The notes below the pieces were generated by a model, which saw only the letters and a list, made by a program, of their open reading frames with translations, made no database searches and was not told where the DNA came from. Source: Phreatobacter stygius (GTDB lineage Bacteria; Pseudomonadota; Alphaproteobacteria; Rhizobiales; Phreatobacteraceae). From it: a stretch of 64,000 nt of DNA. The stretch covers positions 5,283,001 to 5,347,000 of the forward strand of contig NZ_CP039690.1 of assembly GCF_005144885.1 (NCBI RefSeq), read 5' to 3'. Numbering within the stretch: position 1 is the first letter of the stretch; each line of letters opens with the position of its first letter. Below are positions 39,261-49,097 of the stretch, piece after piece. The position numbers and the translations under genes were made by a program.

Positions 39261-41831
39261 TTGATTCAAGGTGGCCTTTTTACGCGAGATTTCCTTGAAG
39301 AGGGCATCAAAGGACAAGCTGCCTGGCAGCAAATAGATGATGCAGAGCTGCGCCGGCTTAAAGACATGGCTGTGTCGCTCTTCGCGAAAATCACGTCGAC
39401 CAAAAGCCCGAATGAGGCGGTTACTGAGAAGGATCTGATCTACCCGCTTCTGTCGACGATCGGCTGGGGTGATCTGGTGCTGGTCCAGCAGAGCGCTTCG
39501 AAGAAGGGCCGGAGCGATGTTCCGGACGGGCTTCTTTTCGCGGATGAGACCGCATTCGCGAACGGTAGACGCGAACTCGACAGCTGGCTGCGGTTCCGCC
39601 ATGGCATCTGTCTGGTTGAATCGAAGAAGTGGAACCGCGTCCTCGACCGTGAGGAGAAAGGCGCAAAGTCCCACGAGGGCGTACCCTCGACGCAGATGTT
39701 ACGCTATTTGCGTCGAGCAGACGATATCACGAGTGGCAAGCTACGATGGGGTATCCTGACCAACGGTCGACACTGGAGACTCTACCATCAGGGTGCACTG
39801 TCGGTCTCGGAAGATTTTCTTGAAATCGACCTTGGCAAGGTCCTTGACCTGCCCGGGTGCGGGCTTGACTTGATCGATGTCCGAGGCCGGACTCCGGCTG
39901 AAATCGAGGCTTTGCGAGAGCATCTCTTCAAGCTTTTCGTGGTGATCTTTGGTCGCGATGCGTTCGTGCCGCAAGACGGCAGGCTTACCTTCCATCAAAT
40001 CGCGCTCCAAGAAGGACGGAAATGGGAAACGCGAGTCGCTCGCGACCTTGCAGACAAAGTCTTCGACGAGGTGTTTCCCCTTCTCGCCGACGCCCTCGCC
40101 AAATCCGATCCGCAGCGAGACAAAGCTTTCGGATCGGCCTATCTCAACGAAGTCCGCCAAGCAGCACTGATCCTGCTCTATCGGATCCTTTTCGTGCTCT
40201 ACGCTGAAGATCGCAATCTGCTTCCCGATGAGTCCGGTCTCTATGCCGACTATTGTCTGACGCGGGTTCGCCAGGAAGTGGCTGAGCGCAAGAGCGCACG
40301 CAAGCCTTTTCCGGCCTCAGCCAAGACATATTGGCCGCGTCTGCAATCGATCTTTCGAGCCATTGCAGAGGGTGACGACGATCTCGGCATTCCGCCTTAC
40401 AACGGTGGCCTTTTCGACAAGGACGCTGCGCCGATCTTGGAGCGAGTTGCTCTTAACGACGCCGTCGTTGCTGACGTTGTCTTTCGATTGTCGCACGAAC
40501 ACGATCCGAAGTCCGCTCGACCACCCAAATACATCAACTACCGTGACTTGTCGGTGCAGCAGCTCGGCTCGGTCTACGAGCAGATTCTCGAACACGGACT
40601 TCGCCTGAATGACGACGGCACCGTGGGCATTGCCGCCGACGCGTCCGGCCGGAAAACATCGGGATCCTATTACACGCCCGAGGAACTGGTTGGCCTGATC
40701 ATAGAACGCGCGGTCGGCCCGCTGGTCGACGAGCGTCTTTCCTGTTTCCGCGAGAAAGCCGCCGCTGCAGCTCATGACGCTCGTCCAATCCGTAGCCGTC
40801 TCGACGAACTCACGGATCTTGATCCTGCATCGCGCTTGCTCGATCTGAAAGTCTGTGACCCCGCGATGGGCTCGGGCCATTTCTTGGTCAGCCTCGTCGA
40901 CTGGCTCGCGGACAGCGTTCTGGCCGCGATGGCTGAAGCGGCAGCGATCGTCACTTTCGCCGATTACGTTTCTCCATTGGCCGGCCGGATCGACGCGATC
41001 CGAACAAAGATTCTGGGCGAAGCCAAATCGCACAAATGGCCGATCGTCGAAGCGCAGCTTGACGATCGCCATATCGTCCGCCGCATGGTGCTGAAACGGG
41101 TTGTCTATGGCGTCGACAAGAATCCGATGGCCGTGGAGCTCGCAAAGGTGGCTCTTTGGCTCCATTCCTTCACAGTCGGAGCTCCTCTCTCGTTCCTCGA
41201 CCATCACCTACGATGTGGCGACAGTGTCGTCGGCGCTTGGGCGCGGCCGATGGTGGACAAGCTTGAGGGATTGGGCGCCCTCTTTTCGAATGGGCTGATC
41301 ACACGTGTCGAGCAGGTCAGTAAGGTCATGGCTCAAATCGAGGGCACGACCGATAATGACATCGCCGAGGTGACGGAATCGAAGTCGAAGTTCCGAATCG
41401 TCGCTGAGGCAACCGACCCGGTTGCAAGCTTCTTCTCGCTCATGACGGCCGAGACGCTGATGGGCGTGCTTGATGCAGCGCCCCGGAAGGAGCCCGAACC
41501 GATCGAACACCTAATTGAGGCGAACAAGTCCGAGAAGGTGATCAAGAAGGCGGCCACCGACCGGCAAGCTTCGAGCGCGCAGCTGGTTTACGGCTCGCCC
41601 TTGACGGGACCTTCGGCGACCCAATCCGTATCGCGACCGGTGAGACCCGCATCACGCCGAAGGACACTGCGAGGCAGTTCTCGCTTCTCGAAAAGGAGGA
41701 AAGGAAGGGCCGGAAGCCGGAGCTGTTCGATAACATGGGCGTCAATGCCCGCCGACGCGTCATCGCCGACGACTTGGTCACCGAAATGCGTACCATTGCC
41801 GCCCAGCATCGCTTCTTCCACTGGGAGATAG
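39261..41831 (+). CDS. Type IIG R-M, N-terminal part: nuclease, linker and SAM-binding motif
   Basis: The sense part covers about residues 1-770; beyond about 41,580 the frame is nonsense. It starts at TTG 39261 with GGGGTGGGG upstream. A PD-(D/E)XK-like nuclease lies at about 60-130: YPLLSTIGWGDLVLV, GRSDVPDGLLF and CLVESKKW. A helical linker follows (about 200-450) with YRILFVLYAEDRNLLP. The methyltransferase part has SGSYYTPEELVG and motif I, CDPAMGSGHFLVSLVDWLAD (about residue 535), then GVDKNPMAVELAKVALWLHS. This is the Eco57I/MmeI-like layout. NPPY is absent from this piece. Confidence 0.75.
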   Translation: MIQGGLFTRDFLEEGIKGQAAWQQIDDAELRRLKDMAVSLFAKITSTKSPNEAVTEKDLIYPLLSTIGWGDLVLVQQSASKKGRSDVPDGLLFADETAFANGRRELDSWLRFRHGICLVESKKWNRVLDREEKGAKSHEGVPSTQMLRYLRRADDITSGKLRWGILTNGRHWRLYHQGALSVSEDFLEIDLGKVLDLPGCGLDLIDVRGRTPAEIEALREHLFKLFVVIFGRDAFVPQDGRLTFHQIALQEGRKWETRVARDLADKVFDEVFPLLADALAKSDPQRDKAFGSAYLNEVRQAALILLYRILFVLYAEDRNLLPDESGLYADYCLTRVRQEVAERKSARKPFPASAKTYWPRLQSIFRAIAEGDDDLGIPPYNGGLFDKDAAPILERVALNDAVVADVVFRLSHEHDPKSARPPKYINYRDLSVQQLGSVYEQILEHGLRLNDDGTVGIAADASGRKTSGSYYTPEELVGLIIERAVGPLVDERLSCFREKAAAAAHDARPIRSRLDELTDLDPASRLLDLKVCDPAMGSGHFLVSLVDWLADSVLAAMAEAAAIVTFADYVSPLAGRIDAIRTKILGEAKSHKWPIVEAQLDDRHIVRRMVLKRVVYGVDKNPMAVELAKVALWLHSFTVGAPLSFLDHHLRCGDSVVGAWARPMVDKLEGLGALFSNGLITRVEQVSKVMAQIEGTTDNDIAEVTESKSKFRIVAEATDPVASFFSLMTAETLMGVLDAAPRKEPEPIEHLIEANKSEKVIKKAATDRQASSAQLVYGSPLTGPSATQSVSRPVRPASRRRTLRGSSRFSKRRKGRAGSRSCSITWASMPADASSPTTWSPKCVPLPPSIASSTGR

Positions 41832-43495
41832 GCTTTCCTAACGTTTGGTCAAACCTCCTGTCGACTCAGCCCGCTGGCGGCTTCGACGCAGTCATCGGCA
41901 ACCCGCCCTATGTTCGCCAGGAACTTCTCGGTGAAACCAAGCCAGCCTTAAAGAAGGCATACCGAGCCTACGACGGCATGGCCGACATCTACGTCTATTT
42001 TTACGAACAGGGCCTCCGGCTCCTTCGCCCCGGGGGCCGTATGAGTTATGTCGTCACCAACAAGTGGCTGAAGGCCGGTTACGCTGAAGCCTTGCGCGAT
42101 CTCTTCACGGATCCCGCGCGCGCCAAGCTCGAATTCGTCGCAGACTTCGGCCATGCCAAGCACTTCTTTCCCGACGCGGATGTGTTTCCGAGTGTCGTGG
42201 TCGTGCGCAAGCCGGTGCTGTCGGCCGCGTTCCCCGTGTCCGATGCCGGCAACACGCCGGCTCCGACTGCCCAGATCTGTGTCATCCCACGTGATCTCGT
42301 TCCCGAGAAAGGCCTCTCGGCCGCGGTTGCTGAGGCGAGCTATCCACTGCCGCTCGCTCTCTTCTCGAAGGAGAGCTGGACGCTGGAGCCGCCGGCAGTG
42401 ATCGCGCTCTTGGAAAAGATCCGGCGCAACGGCGTTCCAATGGCAGAGTATGCGGGTGTGAAGCCCTACCGCGGCGTGCTGACTGGTTTCAACGAGGCGT
42501 TTCTGATTAACACCGCGACACGCGATCAGCTTGTACGTGACGATCCGAAATGTGCCGACATCATCAAGCCCTATTTGCGCGGACAAGACATTGAGCGCTG
42601 GTCCGCGTCATGGGATGGTTTATGGATGATCTTTGCTCGTCGAGGTATCGACATTTCCAAGTTTCCGAGCATAAAGCAGCACCTGGAGTGTTATCGACCG
42701 CAACTTGAACCAAAGCCTGTTAACTGGAAGCCGACAATTCCTGGTGAGGAGTGGCCAGGTCGTAAGGATGGCTCTTACAAGTGGTTTGAAATACAAGACT
42801 CTATCGAGTATTATTTAGAATTCGAAAAGCATAAAATCATATATCAAGAAATTCAATATTCCCCACTTTACGCCTATGATTCGACCGGATTGTTTGGAAA
42901 TAATAAAACGTTTCTGATTGCCAAGCGAGATCAGTATCTACTCGCTGCGCTGAATTCTCCGCTAATGTGGTGGCACAATTGGCGTTACCTTCCTCATATG
43001 AAGGATGAGGCACTTACGCCCGTGGGTGTCAAAATGGAGAGTCTGCCAATTGCGCAAGTTAATTATGATTGCGCTGCTACAGCAGAAGACTACGTAGCGC
43101 AAATATTGACGCTTATGCCAAAGAAGCGCGAGCCGGCAACAGCTCTCATGGACTGGCTTCGCGTCGAATTCGGTCTTGACAGGCCCGGGCGACAGCTTGC
43201 CGAGGCGCATCGCCTTGACGCCGATGCTTTCGTAGCCGTCGTTCGCGCCGCTTTGCCGAAGCGGCAGAAGCTCTCGGCCGCTGATGTCGCACGCCTTCGC
43301 GGGGAATGGATCGACACCGTCGCCCCGGCACGAGCCGCGGCCGACGAAATCCTCGCCCTCGAACGCCGACTGGCCGACCTCGTCAACGCGGCTTACGGCC
43401 TGTCCCCCGATGAAGTGAAGCTCATGTGGCAGACCGCTCCCCCCCGCATGCCGCTCAATCCCTCCGAGGAACTGCGGCGGTTGGGTCTGCAGTGA
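41735..43495 (+). CDS. Type IIG R-M, C-terminal part: catalytic NPPY motif and target recognition
   Basis: 586 residues from ATG 41735; sense coding in this frame reaches back to about 41,560. The methyltransferase motif IV is FDAVIGNPPYVRQE, followed by YVYFYEQGLRLLRPGGRMSY and a TaqI-like C-terminal specificity domain (about residues 220-480), with PYLRGQDIERW. The stretch 42,760-43,080 is clearly AT-richer than the rest, as if the recognition domain had been exchanged. A GGAG lies 12 bases before the ATG, so separate translation is conceivable but weakly supported. Confidence 0.75.
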   Translation: MGVNARRRVIADDLVTEMRTIAAQHRFFHWEIGFPNVWSNLLSTQPAGGFDAVIGNPPYVRQELLGETKPALKKAYRAYDGMADIYVYFYEQGLRLLRPGGRMSYVVTNKWLKAGYAEALRDLFTDPARAKLEFVADFGHAKHFFPDADVFPSVVVVRKPVLSAAFPVSDAGNTPAPTAQICVIPRDLVPEKGLSAAVAEASYPLPLALFSKESWTLEPPAVIALLEKIRRNGVPMAEYAGVKPYRGVLTGFNEAFLINTATRDQLVRDDPKCADIIKPYLRGQDIERWSASWDGLWMIFARRGIDISKFPSIKQHLECYRPQLEPKPVNWKPTIPGEEWPGRKDGSYKWFEIQDSIEYYLEFEKHKIIYQEIQYSPLYAYDSTGLFGNNKTFLIAKRDQYLLAALNSPLMWWHNWRYLPHMKDEALTPVGVKMESLPIAQVNYDCAATAEDYVAQILTLMPKKREPATALMDWLRVEFGLDRPGRQLAEAHRLDADAFVAVVRAALPKRQKLSAADVARLRGEWIDTVAPARAAADEILALERRLADLVNAAYGLSPDEVKLMWQTAPPRMPLNPSEELRRLGLQ

Positions 43496-45028: not shown

Positions 45029-45272
45029 GCTGATCCGTCCTGCGGCGCGGGTTGCACGCCAGCACGGTACTCAACAGGAGATGGGGCCAGGGCGCATCAT
45101 GCAAGGACGTATGCTGGCCATACGGTTTCGTTGAAGCACCGGAGCGATCGCGCTTTCCCTACCGAGAGGGCCGGTCGATCGGGTCGGGCCGTCGAGTCCA
45201 GAGTTTTCGATGGTTGTATCCGGCTTTCATTTACTATCAATTGCTGATGAAACACTGCGGAAGAGGGCCGCA

Positions 45273-48248
45273 ATGTCGCAATTGATCAAGCTCGCCGGCT
45301 GGTCGGGCCAGGCGCGCGGCAATATCGTCTTCGTTCATGGCCTCATGGGCAATGCCTATCGCACCTGGTCGGCCGGCGAATTGGCCAAGTCGCTGTGGCC
45401 GCGCTGGCTGGCCGAAGATGTCGTCGGGCTGAATGCCTATACGCTGAGCTATGAGGCGCCGGCGACCAATTGGCTCGGCACCGGCATGGCGCTGCAGGAT
45501 CGCGCGGTGAATGTGCTGGAGGCGCTGCTCGGCGAGGCCGCGCTCAGCCGATCGCCGCTCATCTTCGTCTGCCACAGCCTGGGCGGCCTTCTGGTCAAGC
45601 AGGTGATCCTCGACCTGCAACAGCAGGCCGGACGCCGTCCGGAGGCCGCGGCACTGCTCGCCCGGGTGCGCCAGGTCGTGTTCATCGCCACGCCGCATAG
45701 TGGTTCGCGGCAGGCCGGCTGGCTCGTTCGCCTGCGCTTCTTCCTCTGGCCGACCGCGGTGGTGCGCGGCCTGATCGAGAATGATCCGGTTTTGCGCAAG
45801 CTCAATGTCGATTTCCGGGGCTTTGCCGCCGATCCCGGACGGCAGATCGCCTACCGCATCTTTTACGAGACGCAACTGACCGAGTTCGGGGTCATCGTCG
45901 CCGAGGCGAGCGCCGATCCCGGCTTGCCGGGCCTGCCGCCGGTGTCGATCGATGCCGACCATATCAGCATCGCCAAGCCGGCCAGCCGGCACGCCTTGCT
46001 CTATCAGCGCACGCGCGACTTCGTGGCGGACGGGCTGGGTGGGCGCGACGAACCTGATGGTGCCGGTGAGTTCGAGCGCTTCGACCTGGTCGACCTGCCG
46101 CGACAGCAATCCTGGAACCTGTTGCCCAGGGCGTTCAGGCTTGCGGCGGTTCTGCTGGTTCTGGCCGGCGCCGGCAAGGTCGTCGATGCGCTGGTCTTCG
46201 CGCCGGCGCGGGTCGAACAGCGCCGGCAGGCCGAGCTCGGCCGCATCGAAGCCCAACGCCAGGCCGACATCCACCGCATGGAACAGCAGCGCCAGGTGGA
46301 GGCCGAGCGCGCCGAGGCGGCCAGGAGGGAGGCCGAGCGGGTGGCGGCGTCCCGCCATGACAGCCTGCTGGCTGCCATCGCCGCCGACAAGGGCGTGCCG
46401 CGCGAAGTCCTGGTCCGCCACCTCGTCCGCCTCGGCGCCGGCGACGATATCAAGCCGGACGACATTCCGCGCTTTCTGGAGAAATTCGCCACCGAATACG
46501 CCGACCTCAGGGCGCAATTGCAAAGGGCGACCGGCGACAGCGCCGAAATCCAGGGCCTTCGCACGCAGGCCCTGGCGCGCATGGAGGCGGGCGACCTGGC
46601 GGGCGCCCGCGACCTGCTGCGCGCGGCGCGCAAGCGCCTGACGGAAATCCGCCAGGACAGCGCCGTGCGAGAGGCTGAATTGCTCTCGGAAGAGGCGAGG
46701 ATCGAGCTCTTGCGGCTGGACTATCGTGCCGCCGCGGCAGCCTTTGCCGAGGCGGCCAGGCTGGTCGCTTTCGACGCCGGGCGTTCCGCCGATTACATCC
46801 GCCGGCAGGCCGATGCGCTGGACGGGCAGGGCGGAGACTTCGGCGACAAGCCGGCGCTGGAAGAGGCGATCGCGCTCTGGAAGGCGGCCGCGGCCTTGCG
46901 TCCGCGCGACACCGCACCACTGGACTATGGCCGCGCCATGCTGGGCCTCGCCAATTCGCTGGATCGCCTGGGCGAGCGCGAGACCGACGGCGACTGGCTG
47001 AGCCAGGCCGTCCAGGCCTATCGGCAGGCCCTCGAAACGATCCCCCGGGAGACGGCTCCGGACGAATGGGCGTCGGTGCTCGAAGGGCTCGGCAATTGCC
47101 TGCTCCACGTCAGCGCTCGCGTCGGCGGATCGACCGTGGCGCAGCACGCCGTCGCCGCCTACGAGGGCGCCCTGACGGTCAGGACGCGGGACCGCAACCC
47201 GGTCGTCTGGGCCCGAACCTATGCCAATCTGGGCAATGCCTATCTGACGATCGCCTTGGCGAGCCCGGCCAGGGTCTGGCTCGACCGGGCGATTGCCACC
47301 TACCAGGAGACACTGACGGTGCTGACCCGCGAGCAGTGGCCCGGTGAATGGGCCGCGCTCCAGTCGAACCTCGGCAATGCCTTGTCGGAGGCCGGCCGGC
47401 GCGAGAAGTCGGCTGACCGCCATGAGGCGGCGGTTCGGGCCTATCGGGCGGCGCTGACGGTCAAGACGCGCGAACGCGGGCCGGTCGACTGGTCGGCAAC
47501 CAAATATAACCTGGCAGGCACGCTGCTGGACCTCGGGCGGCTGGGCGACAGCCGATGGCTGGTCGAGGCGGTTGCCGAATATCGCGAGGCGATCAGCGCC
47601 ATCGACAAGCAGAATGTGCCGTTGCGCTGGGCCACCAGCCATACCAACCTGGGCAATGCCTTGTCCGAGCTCGCGACCCGCGAGCGCAGCAACGCGCGGT
47701 TCGAGGAGGCCCTGGCGGCCTATCGCGAGGCCCTGACGGTCTGGCCGAAGGAGATGGGTGGCTGGGCCCTGTCTCAGCAAGGGGTGGTCAACGTGCTCTG
47801 GCAGCTGGGTCGCGATGGCGAAGGGCCCGGCAGGTTCGAAGAGGCCTTGCCGATCGCCCGGCAACTGGCTGAGCGCCGCTCACGCGCGACAGCACCGCGG
47901 GCCTGGGCGTCGAGCCACTATGACCTTGGCGTGGTCTATCTGTGGATCGGCTTGAGAAAGCCCAGCGAGCCGGACCTGGAGGCGGCCATCGCGGCTTATG
48001 GGCAAGCTCTCGGCGTCTATGACCGGGCCGCCACGCCGGCGCAATGGGCGCGCGCCCATGGCAGCCAGGGTGTCGCCATGCGATGGCTCGCGGGGCTGCG
48101 CAAGGACGCCTCGCTCGCCCAGGCCGCGGCCGATCACATTTCGCCGGCGCTCGACCTGTTGCGCATGCATGGCGAGGCAGACGATGTGTCCTTCTTCGAG
48201 ACCGAATTGCGCGAGGCGACCGCGCTGCAGGAGCGCCTGAGGCCTTGA
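45273..48248 (+). CDS. Alpha/beta hydrolase - membrane segment - coiled coil - TPR protein
   Basis: 991 residues from ATG 45273 (GGAAGAGG upstream). Residues 1-270 are a SERAC1-like alpha/beta hydrolase: NIVFVHGLMGNAYRTW, the nucleophile Ser in FVCHSLGGLLVKQV, VVFIATPHSGS, and the His in DADHISIAKPAS. A single hydrophobic helix (about 288-308) is followed by a charged coiled coil rich in Arg/Glu/Gln (about 310-365), a short helical block with DKGVPREVLVRHLVRLG, and then eight or so TPR-type repeats to the end, each with a WA...NLGNAL core and Y..AL.V.... It is probably a membrane-tied lipase/esterase whose TPR array binds a partner. No partner gene is obvious. Confidence 0.85.
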   Translation: MSQLIKLAGWSGQARGNIVFVHGLMGNAYRTWSAGELAKSLWPRWLAEDVVGLNAYTLSYEAPATNWLGTGMALQDRAVNVLEALLGEAALSRSPLIFVCHSLGGLLVKQVILDLQQQAGRRPEAAALLARVRQVVFIATPHSGSRQAGWLVRLRFFLWPTAVVRGLIENDPVLRKLNVDFRGFAADPGRQIAYRIFYETQLTEFGVIVAEASADPGLPGLPPVSIDADHISIAKPASRHALLYQRTRDFVADGLGGRDEPDGAGEFERFDLVDLPRQQSWNLLPRAFRLAAVLLVLAGAGKVVDALVFAPARVEQRRQAELGRIEAQRQADIHRMEQQRQVEAERAEAARREAERVAASRHDSLLAAIAADKGVPREVLVRHLVRLGAGDDIKPDDIPRFLEKFATEYADLRAQLQRATGDSAEIQGLRTQALARMEAGDLAGARDLLRAARKRLTEIRQDSAVREAELLSEEARIELLRLDYRAAAAAFAEAARLVAFDAGRSADYIRRQADALDGQGGDFGDKPALEEAIALWKAAAALRPRDTAPLDYGRAMLGLANSLDRLGERETDGDWLSQAVQAYRQALETIPRETAPDEWASVLEGLGNCLLHVSARVGGSTVAQHAVAAYEGALTVRTRDRNPVVWARTYANLGNAYLTIALASPARVWLDRAIATYQETLTVLTREQWPGEWAALQSNLGNALSEAGRREKSADRHEAAVRAYRAALTVKTRERGPVDWSATKYNLAGTLLDLGRLGDSRWLVEAVAEYREAISAIDKQNVPLRWATSHTNLGNALSELATRERSNARFEEALAAYREALTVWPKEMGGWALSQQGVVNVLWQLGRDGEGPGRFEEALPIARQLAERRSRATAPRAWASSHYDLGVVYLWIGLRKPSEPDLEAAIAAYGQALGVYDRAATPAQWARAHGSQGVAMRWLAGLRKDASLAQAAADHISPALDLLRMHGEADDVSFFETELREATALQERLRP

Positions 48249-48347: not shown

Positions 48348-49097
48348 CTAGCCCGAGGCAGAACCTTGCTTCCGCAGGCGCAGCAGTTCCGGCATGGCGA
48401 TGACCGCGGCGATCGCGCGGCGTTCGTCCATATCAGGCATGGCGATCAGCCGGTCGAGACAGGCGGCGATCTCGGCATCGCCGCGCAGTTCGGCGACAAG
48501 TTCGGCGAGCGCGCGCCCGGCGCGCTCTTCGGCCCATTGTTCGTCGCGATCATAGACCTGATCGAGCGCGGAGCGGTCGTCCGGGCCGGCGGGCGCGGTG
48601 ACGCCGGCCCGATGCTGCAGGCGCCTGATGCGGGCGGTCCTCAGGTCGTCCTCGGCGTAGTCGAGATAGACGAGGTGGCCGGAAAGGCTCGCAAAGCGCG
48701 GGTCGGGCGAAGCGCGCTCCTCGGCCCGCAGCGCGGTCAGCGCCGCGATCCGCGAAGCATCCGGCCCCCGGGCCCCGGCTGGTCCCTCGGTGAGCCAGGC
48801 ATAGGCCCTGACATGGCGCGGCTCGATGTCGACAATGGTGAACCCTGTCGCGCGCAGCGTATGGGCGAGCTTCGGCCGGTGGCCGGTCAGCTCCAGGCCG
48901 ACCTGGCTCACGCCGTGGCGGGTCAGCACGGAGGCAAAGGCGCGCCAGCCGTCGCGGTCGTCGCCGGCATGCCAGCGCTCGGCCACATCCTGCACGGCCA
49001 GTTCGAAGGTGGCGCCGGCCGTGCTGATCCCGGCGGTCTTCACTCTCTCTGCGGTCATCGTCATGTGTCCGATGCCGTCCAAGCGAACTGCCATCAT
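48348..49097 (-). CDS. IS110-family transposase-derived DEDD-domain protein
   Basis: 249 residues resembling only the N-terminal RuvC-like (DEDD) half of IS110 transposases. TAGISTAGATFELAV matches the IS110 start pattern GIDVSKATxxxAV, with the first catalytic Asp replaced by Ser25. QVGLELTGHRP keeps the Glu (E69), and GARGPDASRIAAL matches the KTDxxDAxxLA block (D113). The C-terminal Transposase_20 half is absent; a helical tail of unrelated sequence ends the protein. Alternative starts are at 49064 and 49058. I see no IS ends around it. It is probably a domesticated or inactivated derivative. Confidence 0.6.
   Translation of the reverse strand: MMAVRLDGIGHMTMTAERVKTAGISTAGATFELAVQDVAERWHAGDDRDGWRAFASVLTRHGVSQVGLELTGHRPKLAHTLRATGFTIVDIEPRHVRAYAWLTEGPAGARGPDASRIAALTALRAEERASPDPRFASLSGHLVYLDYAEDDLRTARIRRLQHRAGVTAPAGPDDRSALDQVYDRDEQWAEERAGRALAELVAELRGDAEIAACLDRLIAMPDMDERRAIAAVIAMPELLRLRKQGSASG

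Follow-up and report, generated by a model that had tools for sequence, protein, structure and literature searches.

Alpha/beta-hydrolases are among the listed effectors of bDLD3 conflict systems, in which they are proposed to act on membrane lipids (Kaur et al., PMC8195603). Fungal NLRs use lipases of the sesB/SERAC1-like kind, also in company with TPR arrays (PMC4986451), and metacaspases, too, occur in fusions with TPR and with Amidase_2 domains (PMC3501461). The protein described here brings a hydrolase and a TPR array together in one chain by way of a membrane helix, a coiled coil and a short helical adaptor. It is encoded in a 64,000-nucleotide stretch of Phreatobacter stygius DNA, the whole of which is called the window. 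Its parts and its principle are known; what looks new is their assembly, which is anchored in the membrane, has no NTPase and carries TPR arrays that are exchanged.

Anatomy of the window protein

The reading frame is intact and, TGA included, runs from 45273 to 48248, specifying 991 amino acids. Its features are the following.

45273-48248, plus strand: whole gene, hydrolase-TM-coiled coil-adaptor-TPR (open reading frame; N terminus kept in the relatives L039, L040, L032 and L003)
45273-46034, plus strand: alpha/beta-hydrolase, DUF676 / SERAC1-like, aa 1-254 (DUF676, PDLC02918, predicted structure)
45576-45578, plus strand: catalytic Ser102 (AGC) in an H-S-x-G-G elbow (invariant in 36 relatives)
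45867-45869, plus strand: Glu199, candidate catalytic acid, a presumed role (invariant in 36 relatives)
45960-45962, plus strand: catalytic His230 (CAT; invariant in 36 relatives)
46119-46196, plus strand: single transmembrane helix, aa 283-308 (AlphaFold2 helix; hydropathy)
46209-46391, plus strand: long coiled-coil helix, aa 313-373 (AlphaFold2)
46401-46649, plus strand: helical adaptor common to caspase-TPR proteins, aa 377-459 (leave-one-out profile, E 1.1e-5)
46662-46898, plus strand: degenerate helical hairpins, aa 464-542 (AlphaFold2)
46917-48167, plus strand: nine regular 47-residue TPR hairpins, aa 549-965 (Pfam, AlphaFold2, Foldseek, autocorrelation)
48177-48239, plus strand: C-terminal capping helix, aa 969-989 (AlphaFold2)

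An alternative in-frame ATG at 45210 is an unlikely start because the window protein and its relatives share the N terminus MSxLIKxxxW; GAAGAGGG stands directly 5' of 45273. The order of parts is that of an AlphaFold2 model of the 991-residue protein (35-sequence alignment; mean pLDDT 81.6, pTM 0.54): hydrolase 1-254, helix 283-308, helix 313-373, adaptor to 459, hairpins to 965, and cap.

The N-terminal domain matches DUF676 over residues 18-146 (Pfam E 7.6e-7; 29.3 bits against a curated cutoff of 20.3) and the PADLOC profile PDLC02918 over residues 15-253 (E 1.3e-18); no described system could be traced from the PADLOC name DUF626_VIII. Ser102, Glu199 and His230 are invariant across an alignment of 36 relatives, and the SERAC1-like hydrolase with an intact Ser-His pair that an earlier, sequence-only reading of this DNA had placed here is borne out. 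Predicted alone (pLDDT 87.6), the domain has a fold that matches esterases, lipases and thioesterases. A profile of it detects BlEst2 (the best match, E 6.6e-8), triacylglycerol lipases and the phospholipase PlaB (E 0.004); by family the enzyme would be a lipid or thioester esterase. No close relative of the hydrolase is encoded in the phage records searched. The window protein has no NCBIfam or PHROGs match, and phmmer comparison of the whole protein with the PDB returns TPR chains only.

The region between hydrolase and repeats consists of the membrane helix, the coiled coil and the helical adaptor, and is not a P-loop NTPase. The chain had been read as free of an NTPase, and indeed no NTPase family is found in it by Pfam at E<=0.1, nor is an EAD or Death-like adaptor domain. 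(The middle component, ABC ATPase and CTD of ABC-3C systems are likewise absent from the window protein and its neighbours.) The single membrane segment and the coiled coil of the same reading are also there: hydropathy and AlphaFold2 agree on one hydrophobic helix at about 283-308 (Kyte-Doolittle 2.15 over 290-308; 1.85-2.9 in relatives), one such helix is found in every close relative examined, and the long helix 313-373 follows it in the model.

What had been described as an adaptor-like block is a real, recurrent module. A profile made from other proteins (leave-one-out) finds it in the window protein at E 1.1e-5, the best of 2000 shuffles reaching 0.32. When the search is made with a single sequence it finds the host only, among 385 genomes; a five-row profile finds 12 of 397. 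Proteins bearing the adaptor are mostly caspases, nearly all of them with an N-terminal hydrophobic, signal-peptide-like segment. The others have helical N termini, and L120 has a signal-like segment and a beta-motif. A profile made from caspases only does not detect the window adaptor, and the link between adaptor and caspases is not significant without the bridging sequences L008, L039 and L041.

TPR units of the window protein lie above the Pfam cutoff. The period of the array is 47 residues (autocorrelation 0.24 at 47, <=0.12 elsewhere), that of L039 and L041 is 48, and Foldseek likens the array to the TPR superhelices of O-GlcNAc transferase and LGN. The array stands as first read; its count, put at about eight, becomes nine regular hairpins plus three degenerate ones.

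The hydrolase and its partners

One scan of GTDB genomes yielded 72 loci, for which architectures were taken from open reading frames and representatives were tested with Pfam. The hydrolase is joined to bDLD3 in L043 (Pfam, E 1.3e-24), to ABC-3C CTD9 in L050 and L070 (E 8e-30), to NB-ARC and TPR in L068 (E 4e-15) and to NACHT and TPR in L054 (E 1e-7), and L042 has a weak AAA/nSTAND3 match. On a conjugative Rhizobium plasmid (L140) a hydrolase-CTD9 gene is followed by genes for the ABC-3C middle component and an AAA-family ATPase. A Lelliottia plasmid relative of about 1375 residues, annotated as an alpha/beta-fold hydrolase, has a P-loop-like motif visible in its sequence behind the hydrolase. 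Attachment to many different immune-type switches makes the hydrolase an effector as Kaur et al. use the term, and, judged by these partnerships, the family is a recurrent, exchangeable effector in immune-type systems.

Other partners occur. In L034, L035, L046 and L052 the hydrolase heads proteins of about 1540 residues; their long C-terminal part, searched in L046 only, has no NCBIfam match. In L003 (1501-3312, genome G004) the hydrolase and a membrane helix are followed by Amidase_2, which replaces TPR, a fusion that parallels the metacaspase-Amidase_2 fusions of PMC3501461.

Comparison of the window protein with its Methylocella relative L039 shows hydrolases that are 60% identical over 252 residues, TM-to-adaptor regions that are 27% identical, and TPR arrays whose similarity goes no further than E 0.008. 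The window array scores 283 bits with L004, 204 bits with L029, which is a caspase protein, and 158 bits with the TPR gene that adjoins the hydrolase in L040. That hydrolases so similar carry TPR arrays of unrelated subfamilies implies that the repeat array has been exchanged; on the evidence of these alignments, TPR arrays are swapped on a constant hydrolase.

The sequence-only reading was aware of no described system with this exact architecture, but the plan is not unique. It recurs in L039 (970 residues) and in a Methylocystis MAG (L041), whose gene is frameshifted in the record; both run from the hydrolase through a membrane helix and a coiled coil to the adaptor and the TPR array. Elsewhere the plan is split. 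L136 has a TM-TPR gene, a hydrolase-TM gene and another TM-TPR gene in tandem, with gaps of 24 and 81 bp, and this three-gene set adjoins an integrase and a serine recombinase in a mobile island. In L040 a gap of 143 bp separates the end of a TPR reading frame from the hydrolase-TM frame that follows it, and another piece of TPR is found upstream of an apparent inserted transposase gene. Fusion (window, L039, L041) together with adjacency (L136, L040) is good evidence for joint action of enzyme and repeat array.

In all three genes of L136 (8036-13025, genome G349) the membrane helix is followed by a motif like PGTVTQTGTGNVIGSGN, whose likeness to the amyloid signalling motifs of bacteria would make it a candidate homotypic link. 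An Undibacterium plasmid relative is a hydrolase-TPR protein with a third type of TPR and without a membrane helix; at this locus (L138, 9001-12509) the gene is followed by a TPR reading frame that resembles its frameshifted continuation.

Genomic surroundings

The restriction gene at 39261-43495, named as a neighbour by the sequence-only reading, is Type IIG-like R-M in two overlapping reading frames, with a frameshift near 41.6 kb as sequenced. It is not directly adjacent to the hydrolase gene: an MFS gene on the opposite strand stands between them, and this gene and the frameshift together rule out an operon. A shared compositional island is ruled out as well, since the hydrolase gene has background GC (0.65-0.71) and the restriction gene low GC (0.54-0.59), which argues against their arrival together on one such island. 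The other neighbour named, an IS110 derivative, does have a match at 48348-49097, but a weak one (E 5e-4, below the Pfam cutoff).

In a genome of the same genus (G003) the flanks are syntenic, but the interval between the MFS and OpgC genes is 2.0 kb, compared with 4.0 kb in the window, and the hydrolase gene is absent. The window's 4.8 kb with the restriction gene are replaced there by 11.7 kb encoding an MmeI-type restriction enzyme, a DEAD/ResIII helicase, a T5orf172 protein and an XRE-M78 protein (L134 6874-15358, contig C71). Thus the make-up of the region differs from strain to strain, and the neighbouring site, one gene away from the hydrolase gene, is occupied by different restriction systems. 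The G003 site that matches the window's restriction gene has the look of a strain-variable defence hotspot.

The hydrolase is accessory: among 397 genomes from the order, 10 have it, and the syntenic G003 does not. A second copy in the host genome (L002/L137) is truncated and lies beside transposase genes; this copy of the hydrolase N terminus (L137 9771-10223) ends at about residue 121 and adjoins an IS3-like transposase. The loci of other homologues are mixed. Some stand amid housekeeping genes (L041, with recA and alaS; L135; L137), and others lie in the mobile island of L136, on plasmids, or beside a prophage remnant, as does the Methylocella hydrolase-TPR gene (L039 4379-8242), next to which are genes assigned by PHROGs to the phage internal virion and to DNA ejection.

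Interpretation and comparison with described systems

That the window protein is an NTPase-free, membrane-anchored immune-type effector, a lipid esterase gated by a TPR sensor, has in our judgement an even chance of being right. The hypothesis of the sequence-only reading, a defence effector switched on through TPR, survives in kind, in that STAND NTPases, Death-like domains and ABC-3C parts are all found fused to this family; the TPR array, however, probably lies across the membrane from the enzyme.

In the relatives that join it to ATPases the hydrolase must work in the cytosol, and a cytosolic hydrolase followed by a single span would put the TPR half in the periplasm. Charges flanking the helix favour N-in in L039, L040, L041 and L032; those of the window protein are balanced and leave its topology undecided. 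A periplasmic TPR half would fit the exported caspases that carry the adaptor-TPR module. TPR binding would then probably occur on the opposite side of the membrane from the enzyme, unlike in a cytosolic NLR. The helix-free Undibacterium relative indicates that TPR can work in the cytosol and that periplasmic TPR is not to be generalised. Amidase_2 of L003 was considered as proof of a periplasmic C-terminal half and dropped: its best NCBIfam match is AmpD, below cutoff, and the amidase AmpD is cytosolic.

On this reading the N-terminal serine hydrolase would be tethered in the cytosol to the inner membrane by its one helix, while the coiled coil and the adaptor that come after it would keep the protein as an inactive oligomer. 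The TPR superhelix, probably periplasmic, would be the sensor, and its trigger would be a product of a phage or of a mobile element, or else a sign of envelope damage. Binding would rearrange or cluster the oligomer and activate the hydrolase next to the inner leaflet; by damaging or remodelling the membrane, the active enzyme would arrest or kill the infected cell. We infer phage defence and lipid cleavage for the window protein, and with them its substrate, oligomerisation, membrane side, trigger and outcome. A more specific form of the reading, which we offer tentatively and consider doubtful as a whole, is a transmembrane immune receptor-lipase: its TPR array, periplasmic and exchangeable, would sense an attack by phage or on the envelope and turn on the esterase in the cytosol with no nucleotide-driven switch.

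The same immune-type effector might instead be wholly cytosolic, its helix lying on or looped into the membrane and its TPR array sensing a cytosolic phage product, as an NLR minus the NTPase might. The balanced charges of the window protein, the helix-free plasmid relative and the cytosolic NB-ARC/NACHT relatives speak for this arrangement; we nevertheless think it unlikely, because a helix of normal length is kept in the close relatives examined, most with N-in charge bias, and most adaptor-TPR caspases have signal-peptide-like N termini. BepA and LapB are TPR-bearing envelope quality-control proteins, and on their model the window protein could be an envelope-maintenance enzyme, its periplasmic TPR scaffold recruiting partners and its hydrolase trimming lipids or acylated proteins. 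The combination of membrane helix and TPR, the relative with Amidase_2 in place of TPR and the loci amid housekeeping genes are consistent with such a role, but a distribution as patchy as 10 genomes in 397, the swapping of TPR arrays and a family relationship to STAND, ABC-3C and Death-domain effectors ill suit housekeeping and make it improbable. Least probable is a programmed-death or developmental signalling protein, comparable to the caspase-TPR proteins of bacteria, that is used against stress and not against phage: the adaptor-TPR module is shared with caspases, and metacaspases are also joined to TPR and Amidase_2 (PMC3501461), but no stress-gene context was found and the hydrolase family is most widespread in conflict-system architectures.

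If the reading as an NTPase-free immune-type effector is correct, a single effector enzyme serves NTPase switches, Death-like adaptors, ABC-3C modules and a direct repeat sensor, and the window protein becomes a good test case for whether immune-type activation needs an NTPase. A sensor across the membrane would allow a response before or during genome injection. The swapping of TPR arrays while the enzyme stays the same, and the division of the plan among three genes in L136, would be natural experiments on how the parts communicate.

Among described systems, ABC-3C hydrolase-CTD9 proteins have a homologous N-terminal hydrolase (L050, L070; operon in L140), but CTD9, middle component and ABC ATPase are missing from the window system. 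Caspase-TPR proteins of the same order have the same short helical adaptor and TPR subfamily; their effector is a Peptidase_C14 caspase with a signal-peptide-like N terminus, in contrast with the hydrolase and membrane helix of the window protein. The bDLD3/STAND conflict systems (PMC8195603) use the same hydrolase family (L043, L045, L054, L068), whereas the window protein has neither a Death-like/EAD domain nor an NTPase; its hydrolase is instead tied directly to TPR, with a membrane helix in the chain. Fungal sesB-like NLRs (PMC4986451), likened here by domain plan, have a NACHT or NB-ARC switch in place of the window protein's switchless, membrane-anchored arrangement, and are alike in having an N-terminal lipase-type hydrolase and a C-terminal TPR array of variable repeats. 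With STAND/NLR proteins in general, whose P-loop NTPase it lacks, the window protein shares the placement of an effector at the N terminus and of superhelical repeats at the C terminus.
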